DNA of 46,591 nt from an uncultured Verrucomicrobia subdivision 3 bacterium. GTDB lineage: Bacteria > Verrucomicrobiota > Verrucomicrobiia > Limisphaerales > UBA8199. The position numbers and the translations under genes are program-made. The stretch covers positions 1-46,591 of the forward strand of contig CAIWMU010000059.1 of assembly GCA_903913865.1 (NCBI GenBank). Reading direction: 5' to 3'. Of this stretch, positions 28,448-45,465 are shown piece after piece. Every line of letters starts with the position of its first letter. The first letter of the stretch is position 1. The notes under the pieces are model-generated. The model saw only the letters and a program-made list of their open reading frames with translations. It did no database searches and had not been told where the DNA came from.

Positions 28448-28473
28448 CGGGGGTGGAGATGAATCCACCCCCG
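28448..28473 (-). other. Strong hairpin in the rtcB-rtcA gap
   Basis: CGGGGGTGGA (28448-28457) and TCCACCCCCG (28464-28473) pair perfectly over 10 bp with a 6-nt loop. It lies between rtcB stop and rtcA start. No T run follows on the minus strand, so it is better read as an mRNA processing or stability element or a partial attenuator than as a full terminator. Confidence 0.6.
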
Positions 28474-28479
28474 GTTGCC

Positions 28480-30234: not shown

Positions 30235-30252
30235 TATCAGGAACCGTGCCAA
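30235..30252 (-). promoter_or_regulatory. Candidate sigma-54 promoter of rtcBA
   Basis: On the minus strand, TTGGCACG (-24 element, matching the consensus TGGCACG) is followed after 4 nt by CTGAT in place of TTGCW. The -12 GC is thus GA, one departure at a normally conserved base. It faces rtcB and lies between rtcB and the sigma-54 activator gene rtcR, which is the arrangement known from E. coli. It is about 360 bp from the rtcB start. Confidence 0.45.
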
Positions 30253-30337
30253 CCCCTTGACGGTGCGGGTGGGGCGCTGGAAAACCTTCGAAACATTGGG
30301 GATTCTGCGTGTTTGTGGGATTTTGCAGGGCGGGTGA

Positions 30338-30375
30338 TGGCAGGGCTTGCCAGTGGGGTGTGTAGCTTATAAGAT
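30338..30375 (+). promoter_or_regulatory. Candidate sigma-70 type promoter of rtcR with inverted repeat
   Basis: TTGCCA (30347-30352), a 17-bp spacer and TAAGAT (30370-30375) form a plausible -35/-10 pair 20 bp before the rtcR ATG. TGGCA...TGCCA (30338-30352) forms a small inverted repeat over the -35 box, a possible autoregulatory site. No Shine-Dalgarno sequence precedes the ATG. Confidence 0.45.
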
Positions 30376-30395
30376 AAAGCCGACGCTTTTAAGCT

Positions 30396-31997
30396 ATGCC
30401 TGCGCGACAAACAGTTCTGATCGGTCTTCTGGGGAGTGTGCTGGATTCCGGATTTCACGGGGAGCGCTGGAACCGGTGGCGGCCCACCGTCTCCCTCTGC
30501 ATGCACAAGGAACTGCCGGTGGCCCGGTTCGAGTTGATCCATTCGAAGGCGCACGAGCACACCGCCCGCTGTGTGGCAGCCGACATCCAGCGGACATCCC
30601 CCGGCACGACGGTTGTGCTCCGGGAGCAGGAATTCGGGAATCCGTGGGATTTCGAGGAGGTGTATGGTTCCCTGCATGATTTTGCCCGGGGCTACCCCTT
30701 CCGCCCCGAGGAGGAGGATTATCTCGTCCACATCACCACCGGCACGCATGTGCAGCAGATCTGCCTCTTCCTGCTGGCCGAATCGCGGCACCTGCCGGCC
30801 CGGCTGGTCCAGAGCGCGCCGGCCGAACCGAAGCGCCGGGGGCCGGATGGCAAATACAGTATCATCGATCTGGACCTCTCGAAATACGACCGGATCGCCG
30901 CCCGGTTCCAGCGGGAGGCGCGGGACGCCGCATCGTTCCTGAAATCCGGCATCGAGACCCGGAACCCCCGGTTCAACCAGCTCATTGAGCAGATTGAGCA
31001 TGTGGCCATCCATTCGAGGGAACCGGTTCTGCTGATGGGCCCCACCGGTGCCGGAAAATCGCAACTGGCACGGCGCATTTTCGAGCTCAAGAAAAGCAGG
31101 CACCAGGTGGCCGGGGTCTTCGTGGAGGTGAACTGCGCCACCCTGCGGGGGGAGTCTGCCATGTCCACCCTGTTCGGCCACACGAAGGGGGCTTTCACTG
31201 GGGCTGTGAAGGACCGTCCCGGGCTGCTCCGCGCCGCCGATGGGGGGTTGCTCTTTTTGGATGAGGTCGGCGAGCTGGGGCTGGACGAGCAGGCCATGCT
31301 CCTGCGGGCCCTGGAGGAGAAACGGTTCCTTCCCCTCGGGAGTGATCGTGAGTCGAGCAGCGATTTTCAACTCATCGCCGGGACCAATCGCGATCTCGCT
31401 GTCGCCGTCCGGTCGGGCAGGTTCCGGGAGGATCTGCTTGCGCGGATGAACCTTTGGACGTTCCACCTTCCGGGTCTCGCCGAGCGTCCGGAGGACATTG
31501 AGCCGAACCTGGATTACGAACTGGACCGCGTCGCCCGAGGCAGCGGGACGCGCCCCGTGCTCGGAAGGGATGTCCGGGAGGAGTTCCTGGCCTTCGCACG
31601 GTCCCCCGCAGCCCGGTGGAGCGCCAACTTCAGGGATCTGAACGCCTGCGTGACCCGCATGGCCACCCTCTCCGCAGGGGGCCGGATCACGCGGGAAGTG
31701 ATGCAGGGGGAGATCGCGCGCCTGCGCTCCAGTTGGGCTCCCGCGTCGGATGCGCCGTACCGGGAGTCGATCCCCGCCGGGGTGCTCGATCCCGCCACGT
31801 TCCAGCAATTGGACCTGTTCGACCGTGTGCAACTGGCCGCCGTCATCGCCGTCTGCCGCGAATCCGCGACATTATCCGAGGCGGGCCGGAAACTGTTCTC
31901 CTCCACCCGTGAGAAACGCAAGGTGCAGAACGATGCCGACCGCCTGCGGAAATACCTGGCGCGGTTTGGCCTCGATTGGCAGGGCTGCAAAGGGTGA
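30396..31997 (+). CDS. rtcR: Sigma-54 dependent transcriptional activator of RNA repair genes, RtcR
   Basis: 533 residues, as in E. coli RtcR (532). Residues 1 to about 180 form the CARF-type sensor (VLIGLLGSVLDSG at the start, LVHITTGTHVQQICLFLLAE around 109-128), which is thought to sense RNA ends or cyclic nucleotide-like ligands. The AAA+ core has Walker A GPTGAGKS (215-222), the sigma-54 contact loop GAFTGA (265-270), Walker B LLFLDEVGE and an arginine-containing sensor region; a short C-terminal DNA-binding part follows (about 475-533). It is divergent from rtcBA and should turn it on when released by ligand. Confidence 0.95.
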   Translation: MPARQTVLIGLLGSVLDSGFHGERWNRWRPTVSLCMHKELPVARFELIHSKAHEHTARCVAADIQRTSPGTTVVLREQEFGNPWDFEEVYGSLHDFARGYPFRPEEEDYLVHITTGTHVQQICLFLLAESRHLPARLVQSAPAEPKRRGPDGKYSIIDLDLSKYDRIAARFQREARDAASFLKSGIETRNPRFNQLIEQIEHVAIHSREPVLLMGPTGAGKSQLARRIFELKKSRHQVAGVFVEVNCATLRGESAMSTLFGHTKGAFTGAVKDRPGLLRAADGGLLFLDEVGELGLDEQAMLLRALEEKRFLPLGSDRESSSDFQLIAGTNRDLAVAVRSGRFREDLLARMNLWTFHLPGLAERPEDIEPNLDYELDRVARGSGTRPVLGRDVREEFLAFARSPAARWSANFRDLNACVTRMATLSAGGRITREVMQGEIARLRSSWAPASDAPYRESIPAGVLDPATFQQLDLFDRVQLAAVIAVCRESATLSEAGRKLFSSTREKRKVQNDADRLRKYLARFGLDWQGCKG

Positions 31998-32018: not shown

Positions 32019-32441
32019 TTATCGCTTACGCTCGCGCGAGGGTGTCACACTCGGCCCCCACTCGTTGAGAAGGCGCACCTGTGCGAGGCGATCATCGCCG
32101 GCGAACGAGAGTTCCAGAACGTAACTGCGCTCCAGTTCACCGCTTGCGGATGACGAGCCGCCTATGACGAGCCAGAGGGCTTTGACTTTCGTCCAAGCAT
32201 ACCCCAGCCGCTGGCCATCATCCGACACAAAATCCGGCTCCCCCAGGCTCAGAAAAACCTCATCCTTGGTGGTCGTGCCGGGAAGCATCGATCTGCTGGT
32301 GCCGGGGTTGATATTTTGGCGGGACCCCGCTGCATGATAATCCACAGGGATGATCAGGCACCCGGTCAGCCAGACCACTCCAGATACGATGAGAAGGAGG
32401 GACAGGCGGACGGCTGGGGGACGGTGTGCCTGCGGTGTCAT
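32019..32441 (-). CDS. Small lipoprotein, BamE/SmpA-like
   Basis: 140 residues. Signal peptide with lipobox VWLTGC (Cys about 28). After the Cys a short linker leads to SMLPGTTTKDEVFLSLGEPDF, the helix-turn of SmpA/OmlA (BamE)-like domains that begin with a G.T...V...LG.P pattern. Such small domains bind peptides or help outer-membrane assembly; this copy is not clearly BamE itself. Its ATG overlaps the TGA of the upstream lipoprotein gene, so the two are co-translated. Outer-membrane or periplasmic location expected. Confidence 0.7.
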   Translation of the reverse strand: MTPQAHRPPAVRLSLLLIVSGVVWLTGCLIIPVDYHAAGSRQNINPGTSRSMLPGTTTKDEVFLSLGEPDFVSDDGQRLGYAWTKVKALWLVIGGSSSASGELERSYVLELSFAGDDRLAQVRLLNEWGPSVTPSRERKR

Positions 32442-33056: not shown

Positions 33057-33314
33057 CTACCGGCGGGGGATGGCCTGGGCGAGGGTGGTGATGGTTTGGA
33101 GGACCTTGCGGGCGGTATCCGGGTCGGGGATTTTCAGGCCGTAGTTTTTGTCGAGGGCGACAACGATTTGGAGGGCATCGACAGAATCGAGTCCAAGGCT
33201 TTCAGGGCCAAAGAGGGGCTGGTCATCCCCGATATCCTCAGGGGCGACCTGGAGCATGAGGTTTTCCACCAGCATGCGTTTCAGCTCCGATTTCAGGGCA
33301 GCATCGTTTTCCAT
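33057..33314 (-). CDS. Acyl carrier protein
   Basis: 85 residues, normal for an ACP. The phosphopantetheine site is the Ser in LGLDSVDALQIV (about Ser43), with the usual acidic helix II behind it. It carries growing acyl chains for the ketosynthase, reductase and possibly the ligase of this cluster. Only 3 bp separate it from the ketoreductase stop, so it is the last gene of the seven-gene minus-strand operon. It is a dedicated, not a housekeeping, ACP judging by context. Confidence 0.92.
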   Translation of the reverse strand: MENDAALKSELKRMLVENLMLQVAPEDIGDDQPLFGPESLGLDSVDALQIVVALDKNYGLKIPDPDTARKVLQTITTLAQAIPRR

Positions 33315-33317
33315 GAG

Positions 33318-34049
33318 TTAAAGCACTCCGCCATCAATTTTGATCGTGGAACCTGTAACATAGGAGGCCTCTTCACAAGCCAAAAAGCGTATGACAGCGG
33401 CAATTTCGGCCGGTTTGCCGAAGCGGCGCATGGGGATGCGGGCCTGGGCGGCCTTTCGCTCGGGTTCGGACCAGTGGGCGAGGGAATCGGTGTCCACATA
33501 GCCGGGGCAGACGGCGTTGACGGTGATGCCGATCCGGGCGACCTCCTTGGCCAGGGACTGGGTGAGGGCCACGATGCCGGCCTTGGCAGCGGCGTAATGG
33601 GTTTGACCGGCCGGGGCGAGGAGGGCGCTAAGGCTTGAGACGTTGACGATCCGGCCCCAGCGCTGCGAGATCATGGAGGGAAGGACGGCCTGGCATCCGT
33701 GAAACGTGCTGTCGAGGTTCGCGGCGAGGATCTCCGACCAGGTGGCTGCGGGCATGGTGCCGAGCAGCATGTCCTTGTGGGATCCGGCATTGTTGACGAG
33801 GACATCGACGCGGCCTTCGGCTGCGAGGATGGCATGCACTGTGGTGCGCCAATCCGCGGGGGAGGTGACGTCCAGAGGGAGGCAGCGGCAGCGATCCGGG
33901 GTGGTGAGGGCGAGGGCATCGGCCTGATCGCGGCGGTTGTGGATGCCGAGCCAGACACTGTTTTCAGGCCGTTCATCGAGAAAGGCCCGGGCTGTGGAGA
34001 TGCCGATGCCTCCGTTTCCGCCGGTGATCAGGATGACACGTTTGCTCAT
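33318..34049 (-). CDS. 3-oxoacyl-ACP reductase (SDR family, FabG-like)
   Basis: 243 residues from ATG at 34049, which overlaps the preceding stop (ATGA). Cofactor motif TGGNGGIGISTA (about 9-20), NNAG (about 86-89), catalytic Ser in NVSSLSALLA and YAAAKAG (Tyr and Lys, about 151-157), and C-terminal GSTIKIDGG. Classic NADPH-dependent SDR of FabG type: reduces 3-ketoacyl-ACP to 3-hydroxyacyl-ACP. No dehydratase or enoyl reductase gene is in the cluster, so these steps may be shared with primary metabolism or absent. Confidence 0.92.
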   Translation of the reverse strand: MSKRVILITGGNGGIGISTARAFLDERPENSVWLGIHNRRDQADALALTTPDRCRCLPLDVTSPADWRTTVHAILAAEGRVDVLVNNAGSHKDMLLGTMPAATWSEILAANLDSTFHGCQAVLPSMISQRWGRIVNVSSLSALLAPAGQTHYAAAKAGIVALTQSLAKEVARIGITVNAVCPGYVDTDSLAHWSEPERKAAQARIPMRRFGKPAEIAAVIRFLACEEASYVTGSTIKIDGGVL

Positions 34050-35101
34050 GGGTGCTGGGGTGTGGAGTCGGGTTGCGGAAAATCGTGCCTGGCGAACCGG
34101 GCGCCGATGGCCTGCTGATTGGTTCCGGCCACACTGACATTGGCCCCCGTGTGGGTGCCCCGGTTGAGGAGGTCCACGGCGGCGGCACATTGCCAGCCGG
34201 TGGCGGCGACCAGACCCTCCCCGAGGATGCGGCGCGGGCTCAGGCGCGGCCCGGTCCAATCACTCCAGGCATCCAGTTCGGCCCGGTTCGTGCGGGAGTT
34301 GTCCCCGAGGCTGTCGCAAAGCAGGTCCCCGGGGCCAGGGGCGGGCAGTTGCTGGCGCATCCGGCTGGCGGCGGTGTGCCGGGAGACACGGGATGTGTAA
34401 GTGTGGGAACTGGTGATGGCCTTCAATTCCGTGCCCGAGGAGAGGGACTCATCGCATACGAGCGCGATGGCCCCGGCGCCTGCGGTGAGAACGGCACTGT
34501 GGTCGAGGTGCCACAGGGCATCTGCGAGGAGCCAGTTCAATTCCCCGGTGCCGATGACGAGGCATGCGTCCACACGCGAATCGACGAGCCAGTCCGCCGC
34601 GAGAGCCAGACCCTGGAGGAAGGTGGCGGAATCCCCTATGAGAGTGTGGAGCGAGGGGGGCTGTTCCAGCAGGGAGGAGACGTTGCTGGCGATCGCGGAA
34701 AAAACCGTTTCCGGGAAGAGCAGCGGGCTGGCGGTTGCGGGGTCCTTGAGCGTCTCCTCAAAGAACCTGCAGGAGTATTGGACGCAGCCGGCATCAAGGC
34801 AGGCCACAATTCCTACGCGCCGGATCCCTGCCGGTCTGGCCAGGAGCGGGGCCATCGCCTCAAGGGCGGCTGCCGCCGCGTAGTGGGTGATGGGGCTGGC
34901 CCTGCGAAGGCGCGGGTGGGCCAGAAACGCGGGGCGTGTGGCCGGGGCGGGCACAGGCCGACCACGAAGCGGGGAGGAACCGGGACGATCCAGCGGCTGG
35001 ATGGGCAGGGGAGTCCCGGTCTGCAGGGCATTTCGCAGCGGGCCCATGCCCCATCCTGCGGGAGAAACGGCACCGGTGCCGGCCACAAAGATCCTACTCA
35101 T
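34046..35101 (-). CDS. Ketosynthase-like protein without catalytic residues (chain-length-factor-like)
   Basis: 351 residues. ATG at 35101 is fixed by an AGGAGG (35107-35112) 5 nt upstream. The fold pattern follows KAS I/II (RIFVAGTGAVSPAGWG at the start, THYAAAAALEAM, FSAIASNVSSLL, CLVIGTGELNW), but where the partner has NACASG this protein has GDSATF (Cys to Ser), the NAHGTGT block is SLGDNSRTN, and the last His block reads ILGEGLVAATGW. All three catalytic residues are therefore lost. In type II polyketide and aryl polyene systems such a partner forms a heterodimer with an active ketosynthase and sets chain length; that role is inferred. ATGA overlaps at both ends. Confidence 0.8.
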   Translation of the reverse strand: MSRIFVAGTGAVSPAGWGMGPLRNALQTGTPLPIQPLDRPGSSPLRGRPVPAPATRPAFLAHPRLRRASPITHYAAAAALEAMAPLLARPAGIRRVGIVACLDAGCVQYSCRFFEETLKDPATASPLLFPETVFSAIASNVSSLLEQPPSLHTLIGDSATFLQGLALAADWLVDSRVDACLVIGTGELNWLLADALWHLDHSAVLTAGAGAIALVCDESLSSGTELKAITSSHTYTSRVSRHTAASRMRQQLPAPGPGDLLCDSLGDNSRTNRAELDAWSDWTGPRLSPRRILGEGLVAATGWQCAAAVDLLNRGTHTGANVSVAGTNQQAIGARFARHDFPQPDSTPQHP

Positions 35102-36345
35102 GCCCACCTCCTGAGAACGAGGGATGCGTTCACGCCGCCGAACCCAAATGAATTCGAGATCACGGTATCGACGCGGGCTGACTGGGGTTTCGACACCACC
35201 GGGAAGGTGCAGGTCGCATCGGGACGTTCAAAGTTGGGCTGGGGCGGCAGCCACTGGCCCTTGAGGGCCATGAGGCAGATCACCGCCTCCACGGCACCCG
35301 CCGCCCCGAGCAGGTGGCCGATGCAGGCCTTGGAGGAGCTGACCGGCAGGGTCGCCGCACGGGGTCCGGCCCAGCGGCCGATCGCGATGGCTTCGGATGA
35401 ATCGTTGAGCAGGGTGCCTGTCCCGTGGGCATTGACGTAGTCAATATCCGCGCTCGTCACCCGTGCGGAGTCGCAGGCCCCGCACATTGCGGCGAGGGCG
35501 GCATCCCCCTGCGGGTGCGGCTGGGTGAGGTGGTGGCGGTCTATGGCGGTGCCATAGCCGAGGATCTCCCCCAGAATGGTGGCGTTGCGTCTCCGGGCGG
35601 AATCGAGCGATTCCAGGGCCAGCACAGCGGCCCCCTCGCCGAGCATCAGCCCGTCCCGCGAGGCGTCAAAGGGTCGGCAGGTGGTCGTGGACATCAGTTG
35701 GAGCGAGCCAAAGCCGGTGAACACCATCTCACTGAGGGCATCGTAGCCGCCGGTCAGCACCCTCTCCCCATGGCCCCGGCGGATCCACTCCCAGGCATTG
35801 CCGATGGCATCTGTTCCGGAGGCGCAGGCGTTGGAGATGATGCGGACCGCGCCATCCGTCCCGAGGGCATCCGAAACCATCCTGACCTGGTTATGGGCCT
35901 GGTATTGCAGTGCGCGGGTCGCCTGCAGGGCGTGGTGGTCCGGGGTGGTGACCGCCTGGCGGAAGTAGCTTTCCCCGAGCGCCATGCCGCCCGCTGTGGT
36001 TCCAAGGATCACAGGGACCGATGTGTCACCCGCCCATCCGGCCTGTGTCCACGCCTCATGGGCTGTGAGCAGGAGCATGCTTGTGGCGCGGTCCACTCTG
36101 GAGGACTGGCGTGGGGTTAACAGACCCGTCGGTATGGAGGGCGGCAGGGAGACCTGCGCCGCGAGCTTCACCTTCTGGCGGCTGACATCGAAGCTGGACA
36201 CCGGCAGAAATTCACTTTTCCCGGATTGGAATCCCTCCGCGTTCCGGTCCCAGCCGAGCCCCAGCGAGGTGATGATTCCCGCGCCGGTGACGACCACGCG
36301 TGGCGGTTGTTGTGGATGTCTGTGGGGGAAAAGCATCGGGATCAT
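35098..36345 (-). CDS. Beta-ketoacyl-ACP synthase II (FabF-like), active
   Basis: 415 residues from ATG at 36345, which overlaps the upstream TGA. Opens with VVVTGAGIITSLG; catalytic Cys in SNACASGTDAIG, His in YVNAHGTGTLLND and His in SSKACIGHLLGAAGAVE, closing SNSFGFGGVNASL. All expected KAS I/II residues are there, so it should condense malonyl-ACP with an acyl chain. It is paired by a 4-bp overlap with the catalytically dead homologue at 34046-35101, an arrangement typical of KS/CLF pairs. Confidence 0.93.
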   Translation of the reverse strand: MIPMLFPHRHPQQPPRVVVTGAGIITSLGLGWDRNAEGFQSGKSEFLPVSSFDVSRQKVKLAAQVSLPPSIPTGLLTPRQSSRVDRATSMLLLTAHEAWTQAGWAGDTSVPVILGTTAGGMALGESYFRQAVTTPDHHALQATRALQYQAHNQVRMVSDALGTDGAVRIISNACASGTDAIGNAWEWIRRGHGERVLTGGYDALSEMVFTGFGSLQLMSTTTCRPFDASRDGLMLGEGAAVLALESLDSARRRNATILGEILGYGTAIDRHHLTQPHPQGDAALAAMCGACDSARVTSADIDYVNAHGTGTLLNDSSEAIAIGRWAGPRAATLPVSSSKACIGHLLGAAGAVEAVICLMALKGQWLPPQPNFERPDATCTFPVVSKPQSARVDTVISNSFGFGGVNASLVLRRWA

Positions 36346-37697
36346 GCCTGCCGGAGGGGTTCCACCGGGACGACCGGTTTGCCGGTTCGCAGGCTCTGCG
36401 CAAGTTTGCCCACACTTTGCCGGAAGCCGATGTTCATTGGGTAGAAGAAATTCTTCCACGAAGTCGTCCCCCGAAGCCGCGTGAAAATGGATGGGATGGA
36501 ATAGGCCTTCTCGAAGGTGTTGGCGTAGCCCTCCAGGAGTTCATCCGGGGTGAAGTTTTTCGGGCGATAGACGACATGGTTGGCATCGTAGATGGACCAG
36601 TCACTTGAAAGGATGCGCCCCTCGGCGGCCAGGCGCTTGTGGAGGCGGGTGCCTGGGTATGGTGTGAGTATTGAAAAATAGACCACCTCGATTTTGGCCT
36701 GGAGCACGAACTCCAGGGTCCGTTCGAAGACGCTTTTGTCATCCGTATCAAACCCGAAGACGAACGATCCATCAATGCCGATGCCGTGGTCGTGGATGCG
36801 CCGGACGGCCTCCATGTATTCGGAGGGGTGGTTCACCCGTTTGCCCACTGCCTTCAGGGTTTCCGGGGAGAGGGATTCAAATCCCAGGAACAGCCCCTTG
36901 CAACCACTCTGCTGGCACAGCTTGAGGATTTCGGGATCCTTGGCGATGTTCAGGGAGGTCTGGCCGAACCAGTTCAGTCCGAGATCGCGAATTTTGCCGA
37001 GGAGTTCGCGGGCATAGGTGCGGTTGCTGATTATGTTGTCATCCACGAAAAAGACGCAGTTTTTCAGGGTCAGCAACCCCTTGAACGGGGGCAGGGCCCG
37101 CAATTCGGAAAGCACCTCGGTGTGGGGCCGGTTGCGGTAGCGGCCGCCAAAGGCACTGGTGACGGCGCAGAACTCGCAGTTGATCGGGCATCCCCGGGTT
37201 GTTTCAACGAAATGCACCGGCAGGTATTTCTTGGTCTTGTAGAGGCTCCAGTCGGCATTCGGCAATTCAGCGAGGGGCGGGAGCTTCCCCTCGTGCCGGT
37301 AGATTTGCTGCAGGTTGCCCTGCTCGAAATCGTGCAGCAGCCGGGGCCAGAGGACCTCGGCTTCGGCGATCACCACACTGTCACAATGCTGGAGGGCCTC
37401 CTCCGGCAGGCACGAGACATGCATGCCGCCCATGGCCACGGTGATGCCGCGCTTGCGGTAGTGGTCGGCGATCTCATAGGCGCGCCCCACGGTGGTGGTC
37501 ATCGCCGAGATGCCGACCAGATCAGCATCCAGGTTGAGGTCGAGCTTCTCGACCTTTTCATCGATAAGGGTGACCTCCCAGCCGGGCGGGGTGAGGGCGG
37601 CGACCTTGAGCAGGCCGAGCGCGGGCATCCGGAAAAAGAAACCTCCGCCCATGAGGCTGTTCTGAGACAGGGGCGATATGAGCAGAAGCCGTTTCAT
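36342..37697 (-). CDS. B12-binding-type radical SAM protein
   Basis: 451 residues. The N-terminal ~130 residues form a Rossmann-like B12-binding domain (LLLISPLSQNS..., VGISAMTTTVGRAYEIAD, VAMGGMHVSCLPEEAL); the His of a canonical DxHxxG motif is not obvious. The 4Fe-4S motif is CPINCEFC (about 174-181) inside VETTRGCPINCEFC, followed by a TIM-barrel pattern (VFFVDDNIISN, GLFLGFESLSPETLKAVGK). Members act on fatty chains, hopanoids, tetrapyrroles and polyketides. It is one of three radical SAM genes here; ATGA overlaps join it to both neighbours. Confidence 0.9.
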   Translation of the reverse strand: MKRLLLISPLSQNSLMGGGFFFRMPALGLLKVAALTPPGWEVTLIDEKVEKLDLNLDADLVGISAMTTTVGRAYEIADHYRKRGITVAMGGMHVSCLPEEALQHCDSVVIAEAEVLWPRLLHDFEQGNLQQIYRHEGKLPPLAELPNADWSLYKTKKYLPVHFVETTRGCPINCEFCAVTSAFGGRYRNRPHTEVLSELRALPPFKGLLTLKNCVFFVDDNIISNRTYARELLGKIRDLGLNWFGQTSLNIAKDPEILKLCQQSGCKGLFLGFESLSPETLKAVGKRVNHPSEYMEAVRRIHDHGIGIDGSFVFGFDTDDKSVFERTLEFVLQAKIEVVYFSILTPYPGTRLHKRLAAEGRILSSDWSIYDANHVVYRPKNFTPDELLEGYANTFEKAYSIPSIFTRLRGTTSWKNFFYPMNIGFRQSVGKLAQSLRTGKPVVPVEPLRQA

Positions 37698-39106
37698 GGG
37701 GTTGCAGTTCCGGTGGAGCCCTGGGGCCAGAGCCGTTGGATGGCGGCGAAGTAACTCCAGAGCGGGCCGACGACGCCCCGGCTTCTGAGCCGCGTCACGA
37801 GTTTGAAATATTCAGGGACGGGATCCCCGACGACCCAGTTCGGTGATTTCGACGCGAACCGGCGCAGTTGCTGGAAGATGGACTCACTCTCCAGCCCCGG
37901 GGCGATGTAATATCTGGGGTTGAGCAGGTCGCAATCCGCCGGGATGATCTCCTCCTTGATCGCCCGCAAATAGAGCGGTGTTCCCGGGTAGATGCGCATG
38001 CCGATGGCGGCCATGATGGTGGGGTGGTCCAGCCTGAGAGAATTGGCATAAGTCTGCTCCAGGGTTTCCTCCGTTTCCCCCGGACCGCCCGCGATCAGAA
38101 AATGGCAGCAATCGATGTTCTGCCCCTTTGCCAGTTCCGTGGAGAGGAGAATGTCTTCGAAGGTGAGGTGCTTGTTGTAGTGGCGTAGGACCTCGTCGCA
38201 GAAGCTGTCCGAACCGAACTCGACATGGGTCAGTCCGGCCCGCGCCATCAGGCTCATCAATTCCGGAGTGAGCCCCTGGGGCCGGAGGAAACACCCCCAG
38301 GAAATACCAGCTCCGGCGCGGATGATGGCCTCGCAGGTTTCGCCCACGTGGCGCGGGGATGAATTGAAAACAGAATCGACGATGAACGCGTATTTTGCCC
38401 CGAGCTGCTTCAATTGCTGGAACTCCCGGGCAACGGACTCCGGGGGGCGGTGGCGGTGGCGTTTTCCCTCGATCACCGGATAGGTGCAATAACAGCAGCC
38501 ATGGGCGCAGCCCCGCTGCGTCTGGATGTTCATCACACCTGTCTGGGAGAGGTAGTGGGAGGTGATCGCCTGCGGACGGTCCTCCACCTCCACCTCGAAA
38601 TCCTCAAGAATGCCGGCGGGTTCGACGGTTATGATGGATGTTCCGCGACGGAATACGATGCCCGGGATGGTGTCGTATGAAGTCCGGTTCTCGAGGGCCG
38701 TGATCAGGGCGGGGAGTGAAACCTCTCCTTCGCCAGCGATTCCAAAATCAGCACCGGCCAGCTCCAGCAATTGCTGCGGAAAGAGGCTGAATCCGCTGCC
38801 CCCGATGATGACCGGGCAGGAGGTCTGGCTCTTCAAATTCCTGCAGAGGGTGGCAAAATCGGGGAAGTAGGTCTCCCGTTTGAGCACGGCGACATCATCG
38901 ATATTCCGGAGGGAGACACAGATGAAGTCCGGCTGGAAGGCTGAGACGGCCTCCTCGATCGTGCCGGTGAGGCTCAGGACATCCAGCATCCCGCAGGTAT
39001 GCCCGTGGCGGCGGAGGGCCCCGTGCAGCAGCGTGAGACCGAGGGGATAGACCTGCTCGGGAACCGTGCACCGGTTGGCGCTGATTAAGAGGATGCGGCT
39101 GGCCAT
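37694..39106 (-). CDS. B12-binding-type radical SAM protein (lipid-biosynthesis type)
   Basis: 470 residues. A B12-binding-like N-terminal half (ISANRCTVPEQVYPLGLTLLHGALRR, then FICVSLRNIDD and CPVIIGGSGFSLFP, AGADFGIAGEGE) precedes the radical SAM motif CAHGCCYC (about 198-205) in TQRGCAHGCCYCTYPVIEGK. Later GLTHVEFGSDSFCDEVL and FLIAGGPGETEETL match the barrel. Proteins of this outline, in my memory, carry the label lipid biosynthesis B12-binding/radical SAM protein and sit with ketosynthase and ACP genes. Substrate unknown. Confidence 0.9.
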   Translation of the reverse strand: MASRILLISANRCTVPEQVYPLGLTLLHGALRRHGHTCGMLDVLSLTGTIEEAVSAFQPDFICVSLRNIDDVAVLKRETYFPDFATLCRNLKSQTSCPVIIGGSGFSLFPQQLLELAGADFGIAGEGEVSLPALITALENRTSYDTIPGIVFRRGTSIITVEPAGILEDFEVEVEDRPQAITSHYLSQTGVMNIQTQRGCAHGCCYCTYPVIEGKRHRHRPPESVAREFQQLKQLGAKYAFIVDSVFNSSPRHVGETCEAIIRAGAGISWGCFLRPQGLTPELMSLMARAGLTHVEFGSDSFCDEVLRHYNKHLTFEDILLSTELAKGQNIDCCHFLIAGGPGETEETLEQTYANSLRLDHPTIMAAIGMRIYPGTPLYLRAIKEEIIPADCDLLNPRYYIAPGLESESIFQQLRRFASKSPNWVVGDPVPEYFKLVTRLRSRGVVGPLWSYFAAIQRLWPQGSTGTATP

Positions 39107-39109
39107 GGT

Positions 39110-40138
39110 CTAGGTTGTCAGGGTGGTCTGGCAGCGGTGGTGAGAACCTGCGCCAACCACCGCGTAATGTTCCTCCATGCTGGTGGTTGAGGGCTGGAGC
39201 CCGGCTGCGGAAATGGCGTCGAGCACCCGTTGTTCGGTCATGATCATCCGGTCCCGCCGGTAGAGGACATAGTCCCGTTGGAGTGGCCCGGGAGTGATGT
39301 TGATCGTTGCGAGGTTTGCTCCCGCAAGCAGCCCACGGACATAGGCATCCTTGCGGTCGGTCAGCCCGAGTGCACTGACGGCGGGGATTGCCCAATCCGG
39401 GTTCATCAACCTGAGCAGTGCCATGCAGTTGAGTGTTTGATCCGCATTCCCGGCAGGGGCTGCAGCTAGAGGTGTTTGGTCGCCCGGGATGAACGGGCTG
39501 ACGCTTGCGCCGCGCAGTGGCAGACGGGAGGCGAGTTGGAGCGCATCAACGAGCTGCGAGGCGGTTTGTCCGGGCAATCCAGCGATGAATCCGGAACTGA
39601 CCCTCCAGTTGCTGGAGGCAAGCTGGTGGATGTGTGCCAGCCGCTCCTGGAGGGTGCCGGGGGATTGAAAGCTTGCGTAGGCACCGGCATGGGCCGTCTC
39701 AAATTTCAGGATGTAACCCGCAGCCCCGGCCTCCCGCAGTTCGGAGTAAACCTCGTGCGGCAGGGTGCCGAGGCAGACGCTGATTCCCAAAGTTGTTTCC
39801 CTGCGCAGGGCCCGGATGAGGGGGATTACAATTTCACTCACGGCCCGGGGATCCTCCCCGGATTGGATGTTCACGTCGGTGACACTTTGGGGCCGGTGGT
39901 GGATGAGCAGCTCTGCAATCTGCTCCCAGGAGGCGCGGAATCGGTCCAGGTCCCGGTTGTCCCGGCGCATCCCGCAATAATGGCAGTTTTCCCGGCAAAA
40001 ATTGGAGACTTCCACCACGGCGCGGACGAAGACATTCCCGCCGAAAATTTCACGGGCCACCGCGGCCGCTCTGCCGTGCAGGATGTCCTGTTCGGCACCC
40101 AGCGCGCAGACCTCCTCGATGGTGGGCTCGTGACACAT
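39110..40138 (-). CDS. Radical SAM protein, BioB/HydE/PylB-like
   Basis: 342 residues from ATG at 40138 (a TTG at 40150 also possible). VEVSNFCRENCHYCGMRRDN (about 42-61) has the CxxxCxxC cluster with the FCRENCHYCGxR context shared by HydE, PylB and BioB. KFETAHAGAY, SSGFIAGLPGQT and the closing ITPGPLQRDYVLYRRDRMIMTEQR fit this family. No extra cysteines for a second cluster are conspicuous. First gene of the minus-strand lipid operon; 3 bp before the next gene. Likely performs a radical rearrangement or C-S/C-C chemistry; the real substrate cannot be read from sequence. Confidence 0.85.
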   Translation of the reverse strand: MCHEPTIEEVCALGAEQDILHGRAAAVAREIFGGNVFVRAVVEVSNFCRENCHYCGMRRDNRDLDRFRASWEQIAELLIHHRPQSVTDVNIQSGEDPRAVSEIVIPLIRALRRETTLGISVCLGTLPHEVYSELREAGAAGYILKFETAHAGAYASFQSPGTLQERLAHIHQLASSNWRVSSGFIAGLPGQTASQLVDALQLASRLPLRGASVSPFIPGDQTPLAAAPAGNADQTLNCMALLRLMNPDWAIPAVSALGLTDRKDAYVRGLLAGANLATINITPGPLQRDYVLYRRDRMIMTEQRVLDAISAAGLQPSTTSMEEHYAVVGAGSHHRCQTTLTT

Positions 40139-40270
40139 CAGTGTGGCCAAAGCACACCAGAAACCGGCCTGATTGGCAATTCGAATCCGGGCGCATGGAT
40201 GGTGTCCGGGGAGGGGAGAGTCATCCGCAGATGGGAAGAAGTCTCTTGGCGGACCCGTGTCATGTCTGAG

Positions 40271-40280
40271 GCAAATTTGC
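40271..40280. promoter_or_regulatory. Palindrome in the divergent lipid-cluster promoter region
   Basis: GCAAATTTGC is a perfect 10-bp palindrome in the 176-bp gap between the radical SAM operon and the glycosyltransferase gene. TAGAAT (40303-40308) just before the GTG at 40315 may be the -10 box of the latter. Operator role is a guess. Confidence 0.25.
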
Positions 40281-40314
40281 TTCAGTTTGGGGACCCGGCA
40301 TCTAGAATGAGGTC

Positions 40315-41019
40315 GTGGATTGGAAGAACCAGTGCGTTGCGGTCATCCCCTGCTTCGATGAGGCGGGCAGGGTGGGGGTGACCGTGTCCGGGGCACTCCT
40401 TCAGGTGGCGTCGGTGATCGTTGTGGATGATGGGTCCAGGGATGGCACTTCTGCGGAGGCTGGGGGAGCCGGGGCGAGGGTGGTGCGGCATGACTGCAAC
40501 CGGGGGAAGGGGGCGGCTGTGAGGACCGGGCTGGTGGAGGCACTGCGGGGCGGGTATTCGTGGGCCGTGCTTCTGGATGGGGATGGGCAGCACCGGCCTG
40601 AGGATATTCCGTCCCTGTTCGCGTCTGCAGGATCGACAGGTGCCGATCTGGTGGTGGGGGACAGGTCGGGCGGCTTTGGGGGCATGAGCTGGCTCCGGCG
40701 GTGGGTCAACCGTTGCATGAGCTGGGAGATTTCGAGGGTCACGGGGCAGACCTTGAGCGACACACAGTGCGGACTGCGGTTGATCCGCCTTGAGGCATGG
40801 CGGCAGGTGCCGCTTGAGAGTGAACATTTTGAGATCGAGTCCGAGATGGTGGTGGGTTTTGTGAGGGGCGGCTACCGGGTGCGGTTCGCGCCAATCCAAA
40901 CGGTTCCGCAGAGCAGGGCCAGCCGGATCCATCCAGTTGTGGACACTGTGCGCTGGCTCCGGTGGAGGCTGGCTCTTGAGTCCCGCCCGGAGAGGGGGCG
41001 CGCATGCCCGCAGACCTGA
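40315..41019 (+). CDS. Family 2 glycosyltransferase
   Basis: 234 residues beginning with GTG. VAVIPCFDEAGRV, VVDDGSRDGT (about 35-44), DGDGQHRPEDIP (about 88-99) and DTQCGLRLI (about 150-158) are the GT2 nucleotide-sugar and acceptor motifs of the DPM1-like group. No C-terminal membrane helices, so it probably acts at the cytosolic face of the membrane. It may glycosylate the lipid product or a polyprenyl phosphate. Divergent from the radical SAM genes; 22 bp before the next gene. Confidence 0.88.
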   Translation: MDWKNQCVAVIPCFDEAGRVGVTVSGALLQVASVIVVDDGSRDGTSAEAGGAGARVVRHDCNRGKGAAVRTGLVEALRGGYSWAVLLDGDGQHRPEDIPSLFASAGSTGADLVVGDRSGGFGGMSWLRRWVNRCMSWEISRVTGQTLSDTQCGLRLIRLEAWRQVPLESEHFEIESEMVVGFVRGGYRVRFAPIQTVPQSRASRIHPVVDTVRWLRWRLALESRPERGRACPQT

Positions 41020-41041
41020 TTTTCGAATTGGAAAAACCGGC

Positions 41042-41401
41042 ATGAACAGCAACCAGACAGGCATGAAAGCATTTTGTCGCAGCAACGGGGCGGCCATTCT
41101 CAAGAAAGTGGCATCCCTGGTGGTTGCCGGGGTGTTGCTGGGCTGGGGCTATGAGTGGGCGGCCGGGCGTTTTTATTCCCAGGCGGAACCTGCCGGGTTC
41201 TGGCACGGCACGCTGCATGGGGCACTGATGCCCGCCGCGATGCCGAGCCTTTTGCTGGGTAAGGATGTTCCAATCTTCTCCGTTTTGAATACCGGCAGGG
41301 GTTACAAGCTTGGGTATATCTGCGGCATCAATCTTTGCGGGCTGTTCTTCTTCGGCATGGCATTCCGCCCGACCCGCAAGCCGCCGCAGGGTCAGCCCTA
41401 A
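41042..41401 (+). CDS. Small membrane protein of the lipid cluster
   Basis: 119 residues; start at the ATG at 41042. Two hydrophobic helices are clear (about 18-38 LKKVASLVVAGVLLGWGY, and about 90-108 YICGINLCGLFFFGMAF), with a weaker one at about 55-75 (ALMPAAMPSLLLG). No known motif. Position after the glycosyltransferase suggests a membrane partner of lipid modification or export. The stop overlaps by 4 bp with the tail of the opposite-strand gene. Confidence 0.65.
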   Translation: MNSNQTGMKAFCRSNGAAILKKVASLVVAGVLLGWGYEWAAGRFYSQAEPAGFWHGTLHGALMPAAMPSLLLGKDVPIFSVLNTGRGYKLGYICGINLCGLFFFGMAFRPTRKPPQGQP

Positions 41402-42132
41402 TAGAGGAGACCCCGGTAAACCTCGATCACATCCAGCGGACCGCCTGCCCAATAGTGGTTGGCCGGGAAGTGGAATGTGCGGTTCGCGCGGTCGTAGATC
41501 AATTCCGTGGGGGCTGCCGGCTGGTTTGGATCGTATGCCGTGAAGCGCACTCCCGAGGATGTCTCCTCCCGCCCGAACAGGGTGATTCCATGATTGATCG
41601 TCAACTGGGGAAAGCGGACTAGATGCACGATGGGGTCGATCCGGTTGGGGGGTGCCAGCGTGAGCTTTTGGGCGGTGCATTCCTGATGCCGCCTGGAGAT
41701 GGGGAACACCATGCGCCAGTGGCTGCGGAGGCAGTAGGACTGCCACGCCCCGCCGCATGCGGCCTTGAGCAGGCCGGGCCGGGTGCCGCTGAACTCCCGC
41801 AGGGAGTGGTGGCCGGGGATCACAATCCGGTCCGGGTCACGGCTCGGGAATCTGGGGGAACGCCGCACCACCCGGCGGATCAACCGGAGGGTTTCCGCAT
41901 CATTCAATCGAGGGAGGGAGGGATCAAAGCGGGTATGATAAAAGAACTGTCTTGCCGAGCGGACCATCACGAAACAGCGGTGTGAATAGGTCGGGGGCGG
42001 GTCGCTGCGGGTCGTGGCCATCCGACCGGTGGCGGGATCCATCCGGTAGTGCCAGACCAGCTCGTTGGCGAAGGCGAATGTGTCCCGCTCGAACAAAAAG
42101 CCCCCGGCGGAATGATTGTCCGAGAAAGTCAT
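41398..42132 (-). CDS. Uncharacterised protein embedded in the lipid cluster
   Basis: 244 residues from ATG at 42132. Soluble, Arg/His/Pro-rich, no membrane helix or signal peptide. Stretches such as HRCFVMVRSARQFFYHTRFD (about 51-70), RIVIPGHHSLREFS (about 104-117) and IDPIVHLVRFPQLTINHGITLF (about 176-197) look like conserved cores with several His and one Cys near the first. I do not recognise a family. It is flanked by the small membrane protein and, divergently, by the acyl ligase only 39 bp away, so shared regulation is likely. Confidence 0.65.
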   Translation of the reverse strand: MTFSDNHSAGGFLFERDTFAFANELVWHYRMDPATGRMATTRSDPPPTYSHRCFVMVRSARQFFYHTRFDPSLPRLNDAETLRLIRRVVRRSPRFPSRDPDRIVIPGHHSLREFSGTRPGLLKAACGGAWQSYCLRSHWRMVFPISRRHQECTAQKLTLAPPNRIDPIVHLVRFPQLTINHGITLFGREETSSGVRFTAYDPNQPAAPTELIYDRANRTFHFPANHYWAGGPLDVIEVYRGLLY

Positions 42133-42171
42133 GCTTGCGGAGTAGTATGTGCATCGTTTACGAAGGAGTAA

Positions 42172-43437
42172 ATGCTTTACGATGCGTGGCTGGCGGTGGT
42201 GCGGGAACGCGGGGTGGAGACCGCCCTGTGGGAGGTGGAATCCGGCCGCCGCTGGAGCTTTGCAGACTTGTGCAGGGTGGCGGAGGCGGAAGCCATCCCG
42301 GGGACCGGCATGGTTCATCCGCAGGGCCATTCCGCCCGGTTTGTGGTGGAGGTGCTGCGCGGGTGGCGTTCCGGCAGGGTGGTCTGCCCCCTGGAACCGG
42401 GTCAACAACCTCCCGCAGTTCCCGGGCCCCCGGGCTCATGCAGGCACATCAAGATGACATCCGCCACGACAGGCAGTCCCAAGGTGATCGCCTTCAGGGA
42501 GAGTCAGCTTGCGGCGGATGCGGAGAATATTGTGGCCACCATGGGGCTGCGGCCCGACTGGCCAAACCTTGGCGCCATCTCGATGGCCCATTCCTACGGC
42601 TTTTCAAACCTGGTCCTCCCGCTGCTGCTGCACGGCATTACATTGATCATCGCCGCATCACCCCTGCCCGAGATGCTCAAAGTCGCCGCAGCCGGACATC
42701 CCCATCTGACACTTGCCGGAGTTCCTGCTCTTTGGCGGGCCTGGCTGGCGGCGGGAGTCATACCCGGGACGGTGCGTTTGGCCATCTCCGCCGGTGCGCC
42801 GCTGGGGATCGGGCTGGAGCGTACCATCCATGAAAAGACCGGGTTGAAGGTTCACAATTTTTATGGATGCTCCGAGTGCGGGGGGATCGCCTACGATGCC
42901 ACGCCAATGCCCCGGGAGCGGGAGGAGCATGTGGGGCAGGCGATGCGGAACGTGCGACTGGAAACCGGCCCGGAAGGGTGTCTTTCAGTCATCAGCCGGG
43001 CGGCCGGGGAATGCTACTGGCCGGACCTCAGTCCCGCTCTTGGCGACGGGCGCTTTGTGAGCGCGGATCTGGCGGAGATCATCGGGGGGGAGGTTCATCT
43101 GCGGGGGCGGCTGGGGGAGCAGATCAATGTGGCGGGGCGGAAGGTTTCGCCCGAGGTGGTTGAGGCGGCCATCAGGTCCCATCCGGAGGTTCGGGAGTGT
43201 GTGGTTTTTGGCGTTCCCAGTGGATCGGAGGACCGGGTGGATCAGATTGTCGCCTGTGTGGCGGGAGTGGCAGGGAGCGGGGTCGCGGATTTGAGGCGGC
43301 ACCTGCTCGACCTCCTTCCGGCCTGGCAGGTGCCAAGGGATTTCTGGATTGTTGACTCTTTGGCCGCAAACGGCCGTGGCAAACTGTCCCGCCCGGAATG
43401 GAGGCGGAACTATCTGAGCCGGAGCGGCGGGGTATGA
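42172..43437 (+). CDS. AMP-dependent acyl/aryl ligase (ANL superfamily)
   Basis: 421 residues; AAGGAG (42163-42168) before the ATG at 42172. Core motif KMTSATTGSPKVIAF (about 98-112, usual TSGTTGxPK), NFYGCSECGGIAYD (about 229-242), an HLRGRLGEQINVAGRKVSPEVVE block (about 310-332) and the catalytic Lys in NGRGKLSRPEW (about 403-413). It activates a carboxylic acid as adenylate and transfers it to CoA or, more likely here, to an ACP as starter unit. It is shorter than common acyl-CoA synthetases (500+), mainly at the N-terminus. Probable priming enzyme of the cluster. Confidence 0.88.
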   Translation: MLYDAWLAVVRERGVETALWEVESGRRWSFADLCRVAEAEAIPGTGMVHPQGHSARFVVEVLRGWRSGRVVCPLEPGQQPPAVPGPPGSCRHIKMTSATTGSPKVIAFRESQLAADAENIVATMGLRPDWPNLGAISMAHSYGFSNLVLPLLLHGITLIIAASPLPEMLKVAAAGHPHLTLAGVPALWRAWLAAGVIPGTVRLAISAGAPLGIGLERTIHEKTGLKVHNFYGCSECGGIAYDATPMPREREEHVGQAMRNVRLETGPEGCLSVISRAAGECYWPDLSPALGDGRFVSADLAEIIGGEVHLRGRLGEQINVAGRKVSPEVVEAAIRSHPEVRECVVFGVPSGSEDRVDQIVACVAGVAGSGVADLRRHLLDLLPAWQVPRDFWIVDSLAANGRGKLSRPEWRRNYLSRSGGV

Positions 43438-43493: not shown

Positions 43494-43790
43494 CTAGTCG
43501 AACTCAGGAGGGCCGCAGAAAAACACGACAGTGGTGCAAGCCAGGGGAATGAAGCCCAGCACCCTCATTGGCCATGGCAGCTGTCTGAACGTGTTGAAAG
43601 TGATGCGTGCATCTGCGATCGCGGCAATCACTGCGGGGATGAAACAGATCGCAACGAGGAGGATGTGCAGGCCCATGGTTCCGGGGCCGCGCGGCCACCG
43701 GCTCCATACCGCCGCAAGATAGGCCATGAAGAGGATGAGCCAGGCGAAGAACCAGCGTTGGACCAGGTGTTCCGGTGGCGTTTTATTCAT
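43494..43790 (-). CDS. Small three-helix membrane protein
   Basis: 98 residues from ATG at 43790, which has AGGA 5 nt upstream. Three hydrophobic helices (about 12-27, 37-58, 73-92). No motif recognised. Converges with the acyl ligase gene. Longer readings of the frame upstream lose hydrophobic pattern and a ribosome site, so they were not used. Confidence 0.6.
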   Translation of the reverse strand: MNKTPPEHLVQRWFFAWLILFMAYLAAVWSRWPRGPGTMGLHILLVAICFIPAVIAAIADARITFNTFRQLPWPMRVLGFIPLACTTVVFFCGPPEFD

Positions 43791-43980
43791 GGGATTCCTG
43801 TTTCGGGAGAGGGTGTGGGGATCCTTTGGCCGAACTCCCGGAGTTCCATTGCGGATCTCCGGCGCCCTGATGTGTTTGATCCTGCGTTCATGGAGGCACT
43901 TTACCGCATAGGTGAGCTGTTGGTGTAATCGATAAAAAGGGCGGAAGCATTCATGCGGTCGATGATCTCTGAGCGCAGGA

Positions 43981-44454
43981 TCACGCTTCGGGAGGAGAGG
44001 AGGGGCCCACACCTGTCGCAGGAGCCGGTTTTGCATTCGCCGCTTGCGGCGCCCCGGGTAGTGCGAACCACAGGGCACCGTTGATCATCAGATAGACAAG
44101 CGCTGCGATGGAACTGACCAGCAGGGCACCGAACTGATCCTTATGAATTCTGACTGGTGCGGTGATGATCACAGAGATCAGGGCACCCCCGGCGAAAAAA
44201 ATTGAGGGGATGAAGAGGATGGCCCAACCGAGCAGAGTCGGGTAGATAATCTGGATCGCCACAGCGAGGATCGGGATAAGGACCGGCCACAACTCAGTGG
44301 CCCGAACATTGAACGAGAGATTGCCCGCCATCCAGATCAACGGGGGAAGCCAGACCAGCAGCCAGGGGATGTAGGCCCACGACCCGCGCCGGATGCGCCG
44401 TTTGATAGCCCCTCGCGCCCACCGCATTGATGTGCTTAGGAAAGCGTTATTCAT
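43981..44454 (-). CDS. Membrane protein of unknown function
   Basis: 157 residues. A basic N-terminus (MRWARGAIKRRIRRGS) precedes about four hydrophobic helices (about 27-47, 55-75, 76-98, 108-132) and a Pro/Ala-rich tail. No recognisable family. Same orientation as the small membrane protein at 43494-43790 and the hydrolase upstream, but gaps of 190 and 102 bp mean co-transcription is unsure. Confidence 0.6.
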   Translation of the reverse strand: MNNAFLSTSMRWARGAIKRRIRRGSWAYIPWLLVWLPPLIWMAGNLSFNVRATELWPVLIPILAVAIQIIYPTLLGWAILFIPSIFFAGGALISVIITAPVRIHKDQFGALLVSSIAALVYLMINGALWFALPGAPQAANAKPAPATGVGPSSPPEA

Positions 44455-44556: not shown

Positions 44557-45465
44557 CTATTTGGAGAGCAGTTTGTCCATGAGAAAGTCGTTCGCATCGG
44601 CGTATCTGGCCGATTTGGAAAAACCTGGAACCAGCAGATGGCATTCGTGTCCCGCCTTGTCCGACTTCTCCTTGAGCTTCACCCCGTAGAGCGGGTGGTG
44701 AATGCCGTGGCCGGCGTCCCTGGAGGGGAGATCCATCTCAGCGCTGCAGGTCATGAACAAGGGGGGATCGTGGGCATCCACATGGTTGATCGGGGAAAAC
44801 TCGACGTAGAGCTTCCGATGCTCAGCATAGTTCCTGAGTGCATCCTCGATGGTAGATTCTCCAACCGCCTTGCAAATCATGGGATGCTTCAAGACGTTCG
44901 GGCCGAGCCAGCCTTCTATCGTCTTTGGGTCGATGGATGTCTGGCCCACCATCACTGCCGCGGCGCAGACGCGGGAGGATTGACGCAGGATGGGATCCGC
45001 AGCTCTGGGATCTGCCAGATCGTCGTGCAGCAGGAGCCACATGGATGTGCAGGCACCGGCACTCGGGCCGGTCAAGGCGATGCGCCTCGGGTCGATCTGC
45101 CATTCAGTGGCCTTTGAACGGATGAACTGGATCGCCCGCGCCGCATCGTGGACAGGGGCAGGCAGCGGATGGTCCGGCGCAAGGCGGTAGTTGATCGCCG
45201 CACAGGAAATTCCCCTGTCCAGAAACGGTTGGAACTGTGGCATTTTCAGGCCCTTGTCCCCCGTGATCCAACCGCCTCCGTGGATGTAAACCAGCAACGG
45301 ACGGGGACCCTCTCCGGGTGCCCTCCACAGATCGATGACATTTCGAGGGTGTGGCCCATAGGCAACATTCGAGAAGGTTGGTCTTGGCTGTTCTGCAGCA
45401 TCGATCGCTGAGATCGGTTGGGTCGTGGCGAACGCGAATATCAGAATGAGAATTTGGAACTTCAT
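44557..45465 (-). CDS. Secreted alpha/beta hydrolase (HSL-type carboxylesterase/lipase)
   Basis: 302 residues with a signal peptide (about 1-23). Oxyanion-hole motif YIHGGGWITGDKG (about 60-72), nucleophile elbow GPSAGAC (about 133-139), possible acid in SAEMDLPSRDAGH and His in GHECHLL (about 277-283) give a complete triad set. Such exported esterases, often acting on acetylated sugars or simple esters, are frequent in Verrucomicrobiota and Planctomycetes. No sugar-use genes adjoin. Substrate unknown. Confidence 0.88.
   Translation of the reverse strand: MKFQILILIFAFATTQPISAIDAAEQPRPTFSNVAYGPHPRNVIDLWRAPGEGPRPLLVYIHGGGWITGDKGLKMPQFQPFLDRGISCAAINYRLAPDHPLPAPVHDAARAIQFIRSKATEWQIDPRRIALTGPSAGACTSMWLLLHDDLADPRAADPILRQSSRVCAAAVMVGQTSIDPKTIEGWLGPNVLKHPMICKAVGESTIEDALRNYAEHRKLYVEFSPINHVDAHDPPLFMTCSAEMDLPSRDAGHGIHHPLYGVKLKEKSDKAGHECHLLVPGFSKSARYADANDFLMDKLLSK

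Follow-up and report, generated by a model that had tools for sequence, protein, structure and literature searches.

The window analysed here is a stretch of 46,591 nucleotides, contig C59 (CAIWMU010000059.1) of a 6.27 Mb draft genome that is 95% complete. Seven minus-strand genes at 33057-40138 form one operon, which reads in order three radical S-adenosylmethionine (SAM) enzymes (rS1, rS2 and rS3), a ketosynthase (KS), a ketosynthase-like partner without the active-site cysteine (dead KS), a ketoreductase (KR) and an acyl carrier protein (ACP). Four of the six junctions (rS2/rS3, rS3/KS, KS/dead KS and dead KS/KR) are ATGA overlaps, and gaps of 3 bp separate rS1 from rS2 and KR from ACP. This layout had been described in a first-pass annotation of the sequence, and it held when the coordinates, strands and junctions were recomputed. 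The same annotation listed a family-2 glycosyltransferase (GT2), a small membrane protein and an acyl ligase (LIG) as divergent; all three are present, but it missed a minus-strand gene lying between the small protein and the ligase, the product of which we call the Cys-His-Asp protein. The region between the two arms is presumed to hold the promoters for both (Table 1). In our view the cluster, which is known here from its genes, probably encodes an aryl-polyene-like assembly line for an envelope lipid that also includes radical SAM enzymes like those of the ladderane candidate loci.

Table 1. Genes and intergenic region of the cluster, with positions in the window (aa, amino acids)
Feature	Positions	Strand	Basis
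rS1, HydE/PylB/BioB-like radical SAM enzyme, 342 aa, CxxxCxxC	39110-40138	-	TIGR03956, PDB match, alignment
rS2, B12-binding/radical SAM protein of TIGR04072, 470 aa	37694-39106	-	TIGR04072 score, two alignments
rS3, second B12-binding/radical SAM protein, 451 aa, HpnJ/HpnR/BchE-like	36342-37697	-	Pfam B12-binding and Radical_SAM
KS, FabF-like ketosynthase, Cys-His-His intact, 415 aa	35098-36345	-	Pfam ketoacyl-synt N and C
Dead KS, chain-length-factor-like partner, 351 aa, no active-site Cys, Glu at the His333 position	34046-35101	-	Profile match, residues
KR, FabG-like 3-oxoacyl-ACP reductase, 243 aa, start at the ATGA overlap	33318-34049	-	TIGR01830
ACP, 85 aa, phosphopantetheine site	33057-33314	-	PF00550
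Intergenic region between the divergent rS1 and GT2 starts, 176 bp	40139-40314	.	Gap between starts
GT2, short family-2 glycosyltransferase, 234 aa	40315-41019	+	PF00535, 73.1 bits
Small protein, 119 aa, membrane protein by eye	41042-41401	+	No NCBIfam match
Cys-His-Asp protein, possibly papain-like, 244 aa	41398-42132	-	Residues invariant among homologues
LIG, short AMP-forming acyl ligase, 421 aa	42172-43437	+	PF00501, PF13193

Against the NCBIfam model TIGR04072 (rSAM_ladder_B12, 'lipid biosynthesis B12-binding/radical SAM protein') rS2 scores 385.8 bits, above the cut-off of 360. Its next-best models, BzaD (202.3 bits) and tryptophan 2-C-methyltransferase (128.2 bits), both stay under their cut-offs. 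In a control set of 14 well-known genomes the TIGR04072 model gave a weak signal in every one and a score above cut-off in none, while eight of 58 relatives, the window's own genome included, exceed it; the rS2 proteins of three further loci (L092, L042 and L091) also do so. A scan of genome contigs with rS2 returned two distant loci. The second B12-type enzyme, rS3, lies under every cut-off, with 108.5 of the 577.6 bits needed for HpnJ, 93.4 of 650 for HpnR and 91.5 of 481.35 for BchE.

HydE is the best match of rS1 both among the family models (TIGR03956, 183.2 bits, under the cut-off of 254.6) and in the PDB (entry 3ciw, 162 bits); the PylB and BioB scores are lower and likewise under cut-off (104 of 348.2 and 73 of 225 bits, respectively). 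An alignment of six rS1 homologues, with that of the window counted among them, gives 57 to 63% identity to the window protein. Contig C52 of the same genome encodes a HydE above the cut-off (303.6 bits), a HydF (558.1 bits) and a HydG (520 bits), together with a hydrogenase-like protein which, at 170 bits, is under its own cut-off of 450. The window rS1 and the C52 HydE share 33% identity. Because this separate, true set of HydE, HydF and HydG exists on C52, rS1 is a paralogue of the true HydE of the genome, and a role as hydrogenase maturase was rejected. We note in passing that in the C52 locus (L124:1848-9199), where hydE, hydF and hydG stand by the gene of the hydrogenase-like protein, hydF and hydG flank an aspartate ammonia-lyase-like gene.

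The KS scores 331.8 bits against the FabF model, under the cut-off of 493.75. Across the relatives its catalytic residues are fully conserved (Cys in 42 of 42 rows; the first His, the second His and Lys in 41 of 41 each). In the aligned dead-KS rows the active-site Cys is found in none of 39, Glu replaces His333 in 36 and Gln replaces Glu342 in 38 (FabB numbering), columns that depend on a weak alignment of the dead-KS and KS profiles plus spacing. No Pfam match was obtained for the dead KS and its NCBIfam matches are weak (PRK07103, 23.2 bits); over the first half of the protein its profile finds FabF-type structures, at about 5e-8. PDB entry 9s5h matches the dead-KS profile better than any other PDB entry and also gives a good match to the KS profile; the literature search found the code in no relevant paper. 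A structure model computed for the dead KS was of low quality (mean pLDDT 47.3) and was left unused. For the anammox proteins kuste2805 and kuste3606, Rattray 2009 (PMC2649909) tabulates the same Glu333 and Gln342 (here and below, statements on published work follow the portions of each source that were available). We regard the pair as a matching residue signature, which other chain length factors may also carry, and not as a test of descent.

For the remaining proteins the family assignments are as follows. KR reaches 230 bits against TIGR01830 (cut-off 297.75), ACP is above the PF00550 cut-off (35 against 20.8 bits) and under that of its best NCBIfam model, PRK09184 (53.9 against 70 bits), and LIG matches PF00501 and PF13193 with 77.6 and 37.8 bits, respectively. 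The Cys-His-Asp protein is 42 to 64% identical to seven homologues, each encoded next to the small-protein gene in another genome, and Cys53, His181 and Asp201 are invariant in all eight sequences. Its structure model has a mean pLDDT of 71.5 and places the cysteine at the start of a helix, with residues 48-55 below 50. Fold matches are weak (E at least 0.017), comprising a type VI effector domain, IdeS-type enzymes, staphopain and cathepsins, and unrelated folds score alike. Structural comparison reaches a Z of at most 6.8 over about 100 residues of the second half only; the list holds CtaG (Z 5.2) and AziU2-U3 (Z 4.9), with ribosomal and WYL-domain proteins at similar Z, and no named acyltransferase stands out among these matches. 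We propose that this protein, possibly papain-like, acts as a thioester release or transfer enzyme.

The conservation of the neighbourhood was surveyed with the dead-KS profile in 320 genomes of the order (118 genera) and in a phylum-wide sample of 387 genomes. The profile was found in 127 of the order genomes and 63 of the genera; phylum-wide it was found in 40 genomes, with scores above 150 bits only in the window's class. At strict E-values, rS1 occurs in 94, rS2 in 30 and rS3 in 13 of the 320 genomes. Sixteen of the 30 rS2 places and 51 of the 99 rS1 places have a dead KS on the same contig no more than 15 kb away, for rS2 always within 4.2 kb. At genome level the dead KS is present in 83 of the 94 rS1 genomes (Fisher p 1e-31) and in 25 of the 30 rS2 genomes (p 5e-7), values for which related genomes were treated as independent. 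The place lists behind the co-occurrence counts were copied by hand, with nine further pieces of already-listed genes omitted. Where rS1 lies within 15 kb of rS2 (8 of 30 places) the two are always about 1.0 to 1.5 kb apart, and rS3 adjoins rS2 at 12 of its 13 places in the order. The gene order rS1-rS2-rS3-KS-dead KS is repeated in L092, L125 and L129 (of which L129 is truncated where its contig ends), which belong to three other taxonomic families. In all 27 loci collected for the dead KS alone (L086-L105, L136-L139 and L141-L143) the KS stands directly beside it. The conservation of the gene set in other genomes makes it more than chance, and we regard the cluster as real, conserved and functionally coherent. 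The first-pass annotation had made its reading depend on such co-occurrence: the radical SAM genes do co-occur with the KS and dead KS, so that the reading is not refuted, but they do so in only part of the loci, and among the genomes rS1 shows no association with rS2.

Gene content was compared over 38 loci that hold both KS and dead KS, the window excluded. These loci are of unequal length, 25 having been collected for the dead KS alone and 13 through a search match to rS2, rS1 or rS3, and the match thresholds were set by us. Outside the set are L041, L043 and L046 (rS2 without KS), L047-L054 (other radical SAM loci), L128, L130 and L140 (rS2 loci with the KS absent or cut) and the distant L142 and L143. 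Among the 38, ACP was found in 27, KR in 19, GT2 in 18, rS2 in 16, the small protein and the ligase in 14 each, the Cys-His-Asp gene in 12, rS1 and rS3 in 10 each, an MMPL protein in nine, LolA in eight, FabZ in seven and a phytoene-desaturase-like gene in five. Many of the loci are cut short, which makes absences uncertain, and the radical SAM counts are not a rate, as 13 loci were selected for such a gene. In a tree built from 41 KS rows, the label for rS1 changes seven times over 11 rows, that for rS2 six times over 17 and that for rS3 seven times over 11. The tree was made by a quick method and leaves 13 of 38 inner branches open, with two long branches, and the label changes were counted without a shuffled-label control. 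The frequent changes suggest that parts have been gained and lost on one chassis.

Two observations concern other loci of the survey. Trp-halogenase-like flavoproteins are encoded near the KS and dead KS in L086, L094, L095, L099, L103 and L104, in four of these alongside rS1. A second cluster type is seen in L053 (1475-7294) and also in L047, L048, L050 and L051, from the window's family and one other. It combines an ACP, a condensation/WS-DGAT-like protein (assigned by eye, with no Pfam match), a TIGR04072-like radical SAM protein (329 bits in L053, under the cut-off), an FAD oxidoreductase and an AMP ligase; several of these loci have a phytoene-desaturase-like gene, and some adjoin the same ligase, GT2, small-protein and transport genes.

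On contig C17 of the window's genome a row of genes encodes c15, then an MMPL transporter fused to a lipid-A-type acyltransferase, then LolA and FabZ, the families having been assigned from L053 homologues. The C17 MMPL/acyltransferase shares 57% identity with its L092 and L053 counterparts, and in some relatives the c15-MMPL/acyltransferase-LolA-FabZ module adjoins the KS and dead KS. The earlier statement that no dehydratase is present is thus correct for the cluster in the window but not for the genome, which has this FabZ-like gene with MMPL and LolA.

In the pathway that we propose, the ligase or the host fatty-acid synthase would load a starter on the ACP, and a heterodimer of KS and dead KS would extend it with malonyl units. 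KR and the C17-encoded FabZ would reduce and dehydrate the product to a (poly)ene chain, which rS1, rS2 and rS3 may alter while it is ACP-bound or once it is finished. We consider C-methylation by rS2/rS3 to be the most likely alteration, at about an even chance, with ring closure or rearrangement as the main, clearly less probable, alternative. The Cys-His-Asp protein and/or the LpxL-type acyltransferase, with GT2, would transfer the chain to a lipid or sugar anchor, and MMPL and LolA would carry the product to the outer membrane. It is from the genes that we infer the substrate, the product and every chemical step.

A number of observations weigh against this pathway. At 14 of the 30 rS2 places and 48 of the 99 rS1 places a dead KS is lacking within 15 kb; some of these are at contig ends (L128, L129 and L130) and others are not (L043, L140 and the rS1 of genome G120). 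Only 11 of the 320 genomes hold rS1 and rS2 together (Fisher p 0.40), and this lack of association at genome level speaks against a single fixed pathway. By the counts for the 38 loci given above, the radical SAM genes are optional parts. MMPL, LolA and FabZ lie outside the window, on another contig. The match between the KS and dead-KS profiles is weak (probability 36.8%, E 4e-4), and BLAST found no match at E below 0.05 between the window dead KS and the E. coli chain length factor ApeC. The proteins scanned, a set short of the whole genome, included no aromatic ammonia lyase; an aryl head group is therefore unsupported, and an aromatic starter supplied by such a lyase was not adopted. A 2026 preprint (PMC13142503) counts 'ladderane synthase' among the few non-methylating cobalamin (Cbl) enzymes, which is at odds with methylation by rS2.

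Two of the alternatives to be weighed are special cases of the envelope-lipid assembly line, and their probabilities are not exclusive of it. The cluster could make a methyl-branched or otherwise decorated polyene pigment, in which rS2 and rS3 would be B12 C-methyltransferases, rS1 would make or modify the starter and the rest would be aryl-polyene-like. The next-best models for rS2 are those of BzaD and tryptophan 2-C-methyltransferase, non-methylating members are stated to be few among the Cbl-dependent radical SAM enzymes (PMC13142503), and the sister loci with Trp-halogenase-like flavoproteins recall xanthomonadin, an aryl polyene known to be halogenated (PMC8253772). The nearest families of rS3, however, are HpnJ, HpnR and BchE, of which HpnJ and BchE are described as non-methylating (PMC13142503), and the ammonia lyase is again missing among the proteins scanned. 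We regard this pigment as a real possibility, although one that falls somewhat short of an even chance. The other special case is a ladderane-type pathway, with rS2 and/or rS3 closing cyclobutane (or cyclopropane or cyclopentane) rings on an unsaturated ACP-bound chain to give a strained-ring membrane fatty acid outside the anammox bacteria. Consistent with this are the rS2 score above the TIGR04072 cut-off, the resemblance of the rS2-KS-dead KS kernel to kuste2803-2805, the Glu333/Gln342 pair of the dead KS as in anammox, and the preprint cited above, which names Cbl-dependent radical SAM enzymes as the proposed makers of ladderane rings and places 'ladderane synthase' with the non-methylating enzymes (PMC13142503). 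It has to be set against these points that, according to the available portions of the sources, no ladderane gene is proven (PMC4790861, PMC9821293), expression of the anammox genes in E. coli gave no ladderanes (PMC4790861), and Desulfotalea psychrophila has syntenic clusters and produced none; moreover, a phytoene-desaturase-like amine oxidase, a feature of the ladderane candidates, is absent from the cluster genes at 33057-43437, the rest of the genome not having been searched. We consider ladderane-type chemistry unlikely. Slightly less likely still is the fullest form of the idea, in which the two B12 radical SAM enzymes would act on the product of the KS and dead KS and close strained rings in it, a HydE paralogue would have been recruited, the product would be anchored in the outer membrane in the manner of aryl polyenes and the whole would be a verrucomicrobial relative of the ladderane kernel.

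It is also conceivable that two unrelated operons merely adjoin, one for fatty-acid or polyketide synthesis and one of radical SAM enzymes with rS1 serving hydrogenase maturation. That HydE is the best match of rS1, that many KS/dead KS pairs have no radical SAM gene nearby and that rS1 and rS2 are unassociated at genome level would all fit such an arrangement. The ATGA junctions, the same gene order in three other families and the presence in the genome of a separate HydE above cut-off, with HydF and HydG, do not, and we disfavour this explanation as very improbable. The envelope-lipid assembly line with radical SAM enzymes is in our view the most consistent interpretation.

Genes flanking the cluster were also considered as members. 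RtcA, RtcR and the genes at 32019-32441, 43981-44454 and 44557-45465 were rejected, as none has a match of at least 60 bits in any of the 38 KS loci; the last, an esterase, has a single 53-bit match, in L136. The library used for these matches did not contain the open reading frames at 43494-44078 and 45611-46405. RtcA, an RNA 3'-phosphate cyclase (minus strand), and RtcR, a sigma-54 regulator (plus strand), form a divergent RNA repair pair at 27406-31997 with about 2 kb between them, and a large protein of 1133 residues with fibronectin type III domains is encoded at 12735-16136. An EUB338-III-type site was found in 27 of the 58 relatives, and all listed copies read ACACCTACGGGTGGCAGC, which we take to be the EUB338-III target of Verrucomicrobia; none is shown in the own genome. 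From this sequence in its relatives, we infer that the host belongs to the phylum Verrucomicrobiota.

The formation of the ladderane rings is an unsolved question, and anammox bacteria were without a pure culture as of 2009. Here a kernel of B12 radical SAM enzyme, KS and dead KS is kept in what is probably another phylum than that of the anammox bacteria, and its shared core offers a further place in which to test the unproven ladderane candidate genes. The sister clusters of the order hold the KS and dead KS constant while rS1, rS2/rS3, the phytoene-desaturase-like gene and the halogenase-like flavoprotein vary, and such natural variants would allow a comparison of what this radical SAM family does to an ACP-bound chain. 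The cluster also presents a HydE paralogue in a lipid-type operon of a genome that has its genuine hydE elsewhere: rS1 shares the family and the CxxxCxxC motif with HydE but remains under the HydE cut-off and stands in a different genetic setting.

Comparison with the anammox candidate loci (kuste2802-2805, kuste3335-3352 and kuste3603-3608; PMC2649909, PMC4790861) shows both shared and differing features. The kernel of the ladderane candidates, a B12 radical SAM gene adjacent to those of a FabF-like KS and a non-canonical KS, is found in the window as it is there. The kuste2802-2805 locus is described as encoding a SAM radical enzyme, FabF and a non-canonical FabB (PMC4790861), the radical enzyme having a B12 domain (PMC2649909). 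Further radical SAM genes, ACP, FabG, FabZ, a ligase and a glycosyltransferase are on the gene list of the anammox loci, as in the window's genome (PMC2649909, PMC4790861). The replacements at FabB positions 333 and 342 are shared by the dead KS and the anammox proteins, a likeness by tabulated residues and not by sequence alignment. Unlike the anammox loci, the window has a HydE-like rS1 at the head of the operon, the Cys-His-Asp protein and the small membrane protein.

The aryl polyene cluster of E. coli CFT073 provides the second comparison (gene roles, including release and export, are given in PMC8253772). BLAST matches to it are of low identity: the window KS scores 183 bits against the end KS (ApeR by gene order) and 169 bits against ApeO, KR 131, GT2 78, ACP 48 and the ligase 38 bits. 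Proteins of the sister loci add MMPL (52 bits), LolA (34 bits) and FabZ (35 bits), and an acyltransferase is present in both systems. At E below 0.05 no match in the E. coli cluster was found for the small, Cys-His-Asp and radical SAM proteins of the window, and none in the window for the E. coli COG4648-type, DUF3261 and methyltransferase proteins. The window has one active KS whereas the E. coli cluster has two, and only the window cluster contains radical SAM enzymes. Of two further aryl polyene features, the combination of MMPL, LolA and a dehydratase is present in the genome, on C17, and an ACP above the PRK09184 cut-off is not.

Our literature searches found no description of this cluster anatomy and no paper naming TIGR04072. 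'Ladderane' clusters called by antiSMASH have been reported for Verrucomicrobia, in soil genomes and in metagenome-assembled genomes from the Cariaco Basin (PMC7298704, PMC9902471); their label is the one that the first-pass annotation had expected, the phylum is the same as that which we assign to the window, and the available portions of these two papers name cluster types and not this anatomy. The first-pass annotation had placed the cluster between the ladderane candidate and aryl polyene types, as fully neither, and this placement is borne out by the rS2 score above the TIGR04072 cut-off, the likeness to the anammox loci and the low-identity E. coli matches. The class of cluster is thus already on record, and because at least one tested feature sets the window cluster apart from each named class, the ladderane candidate and the aryl polyene, we file it as a variant.

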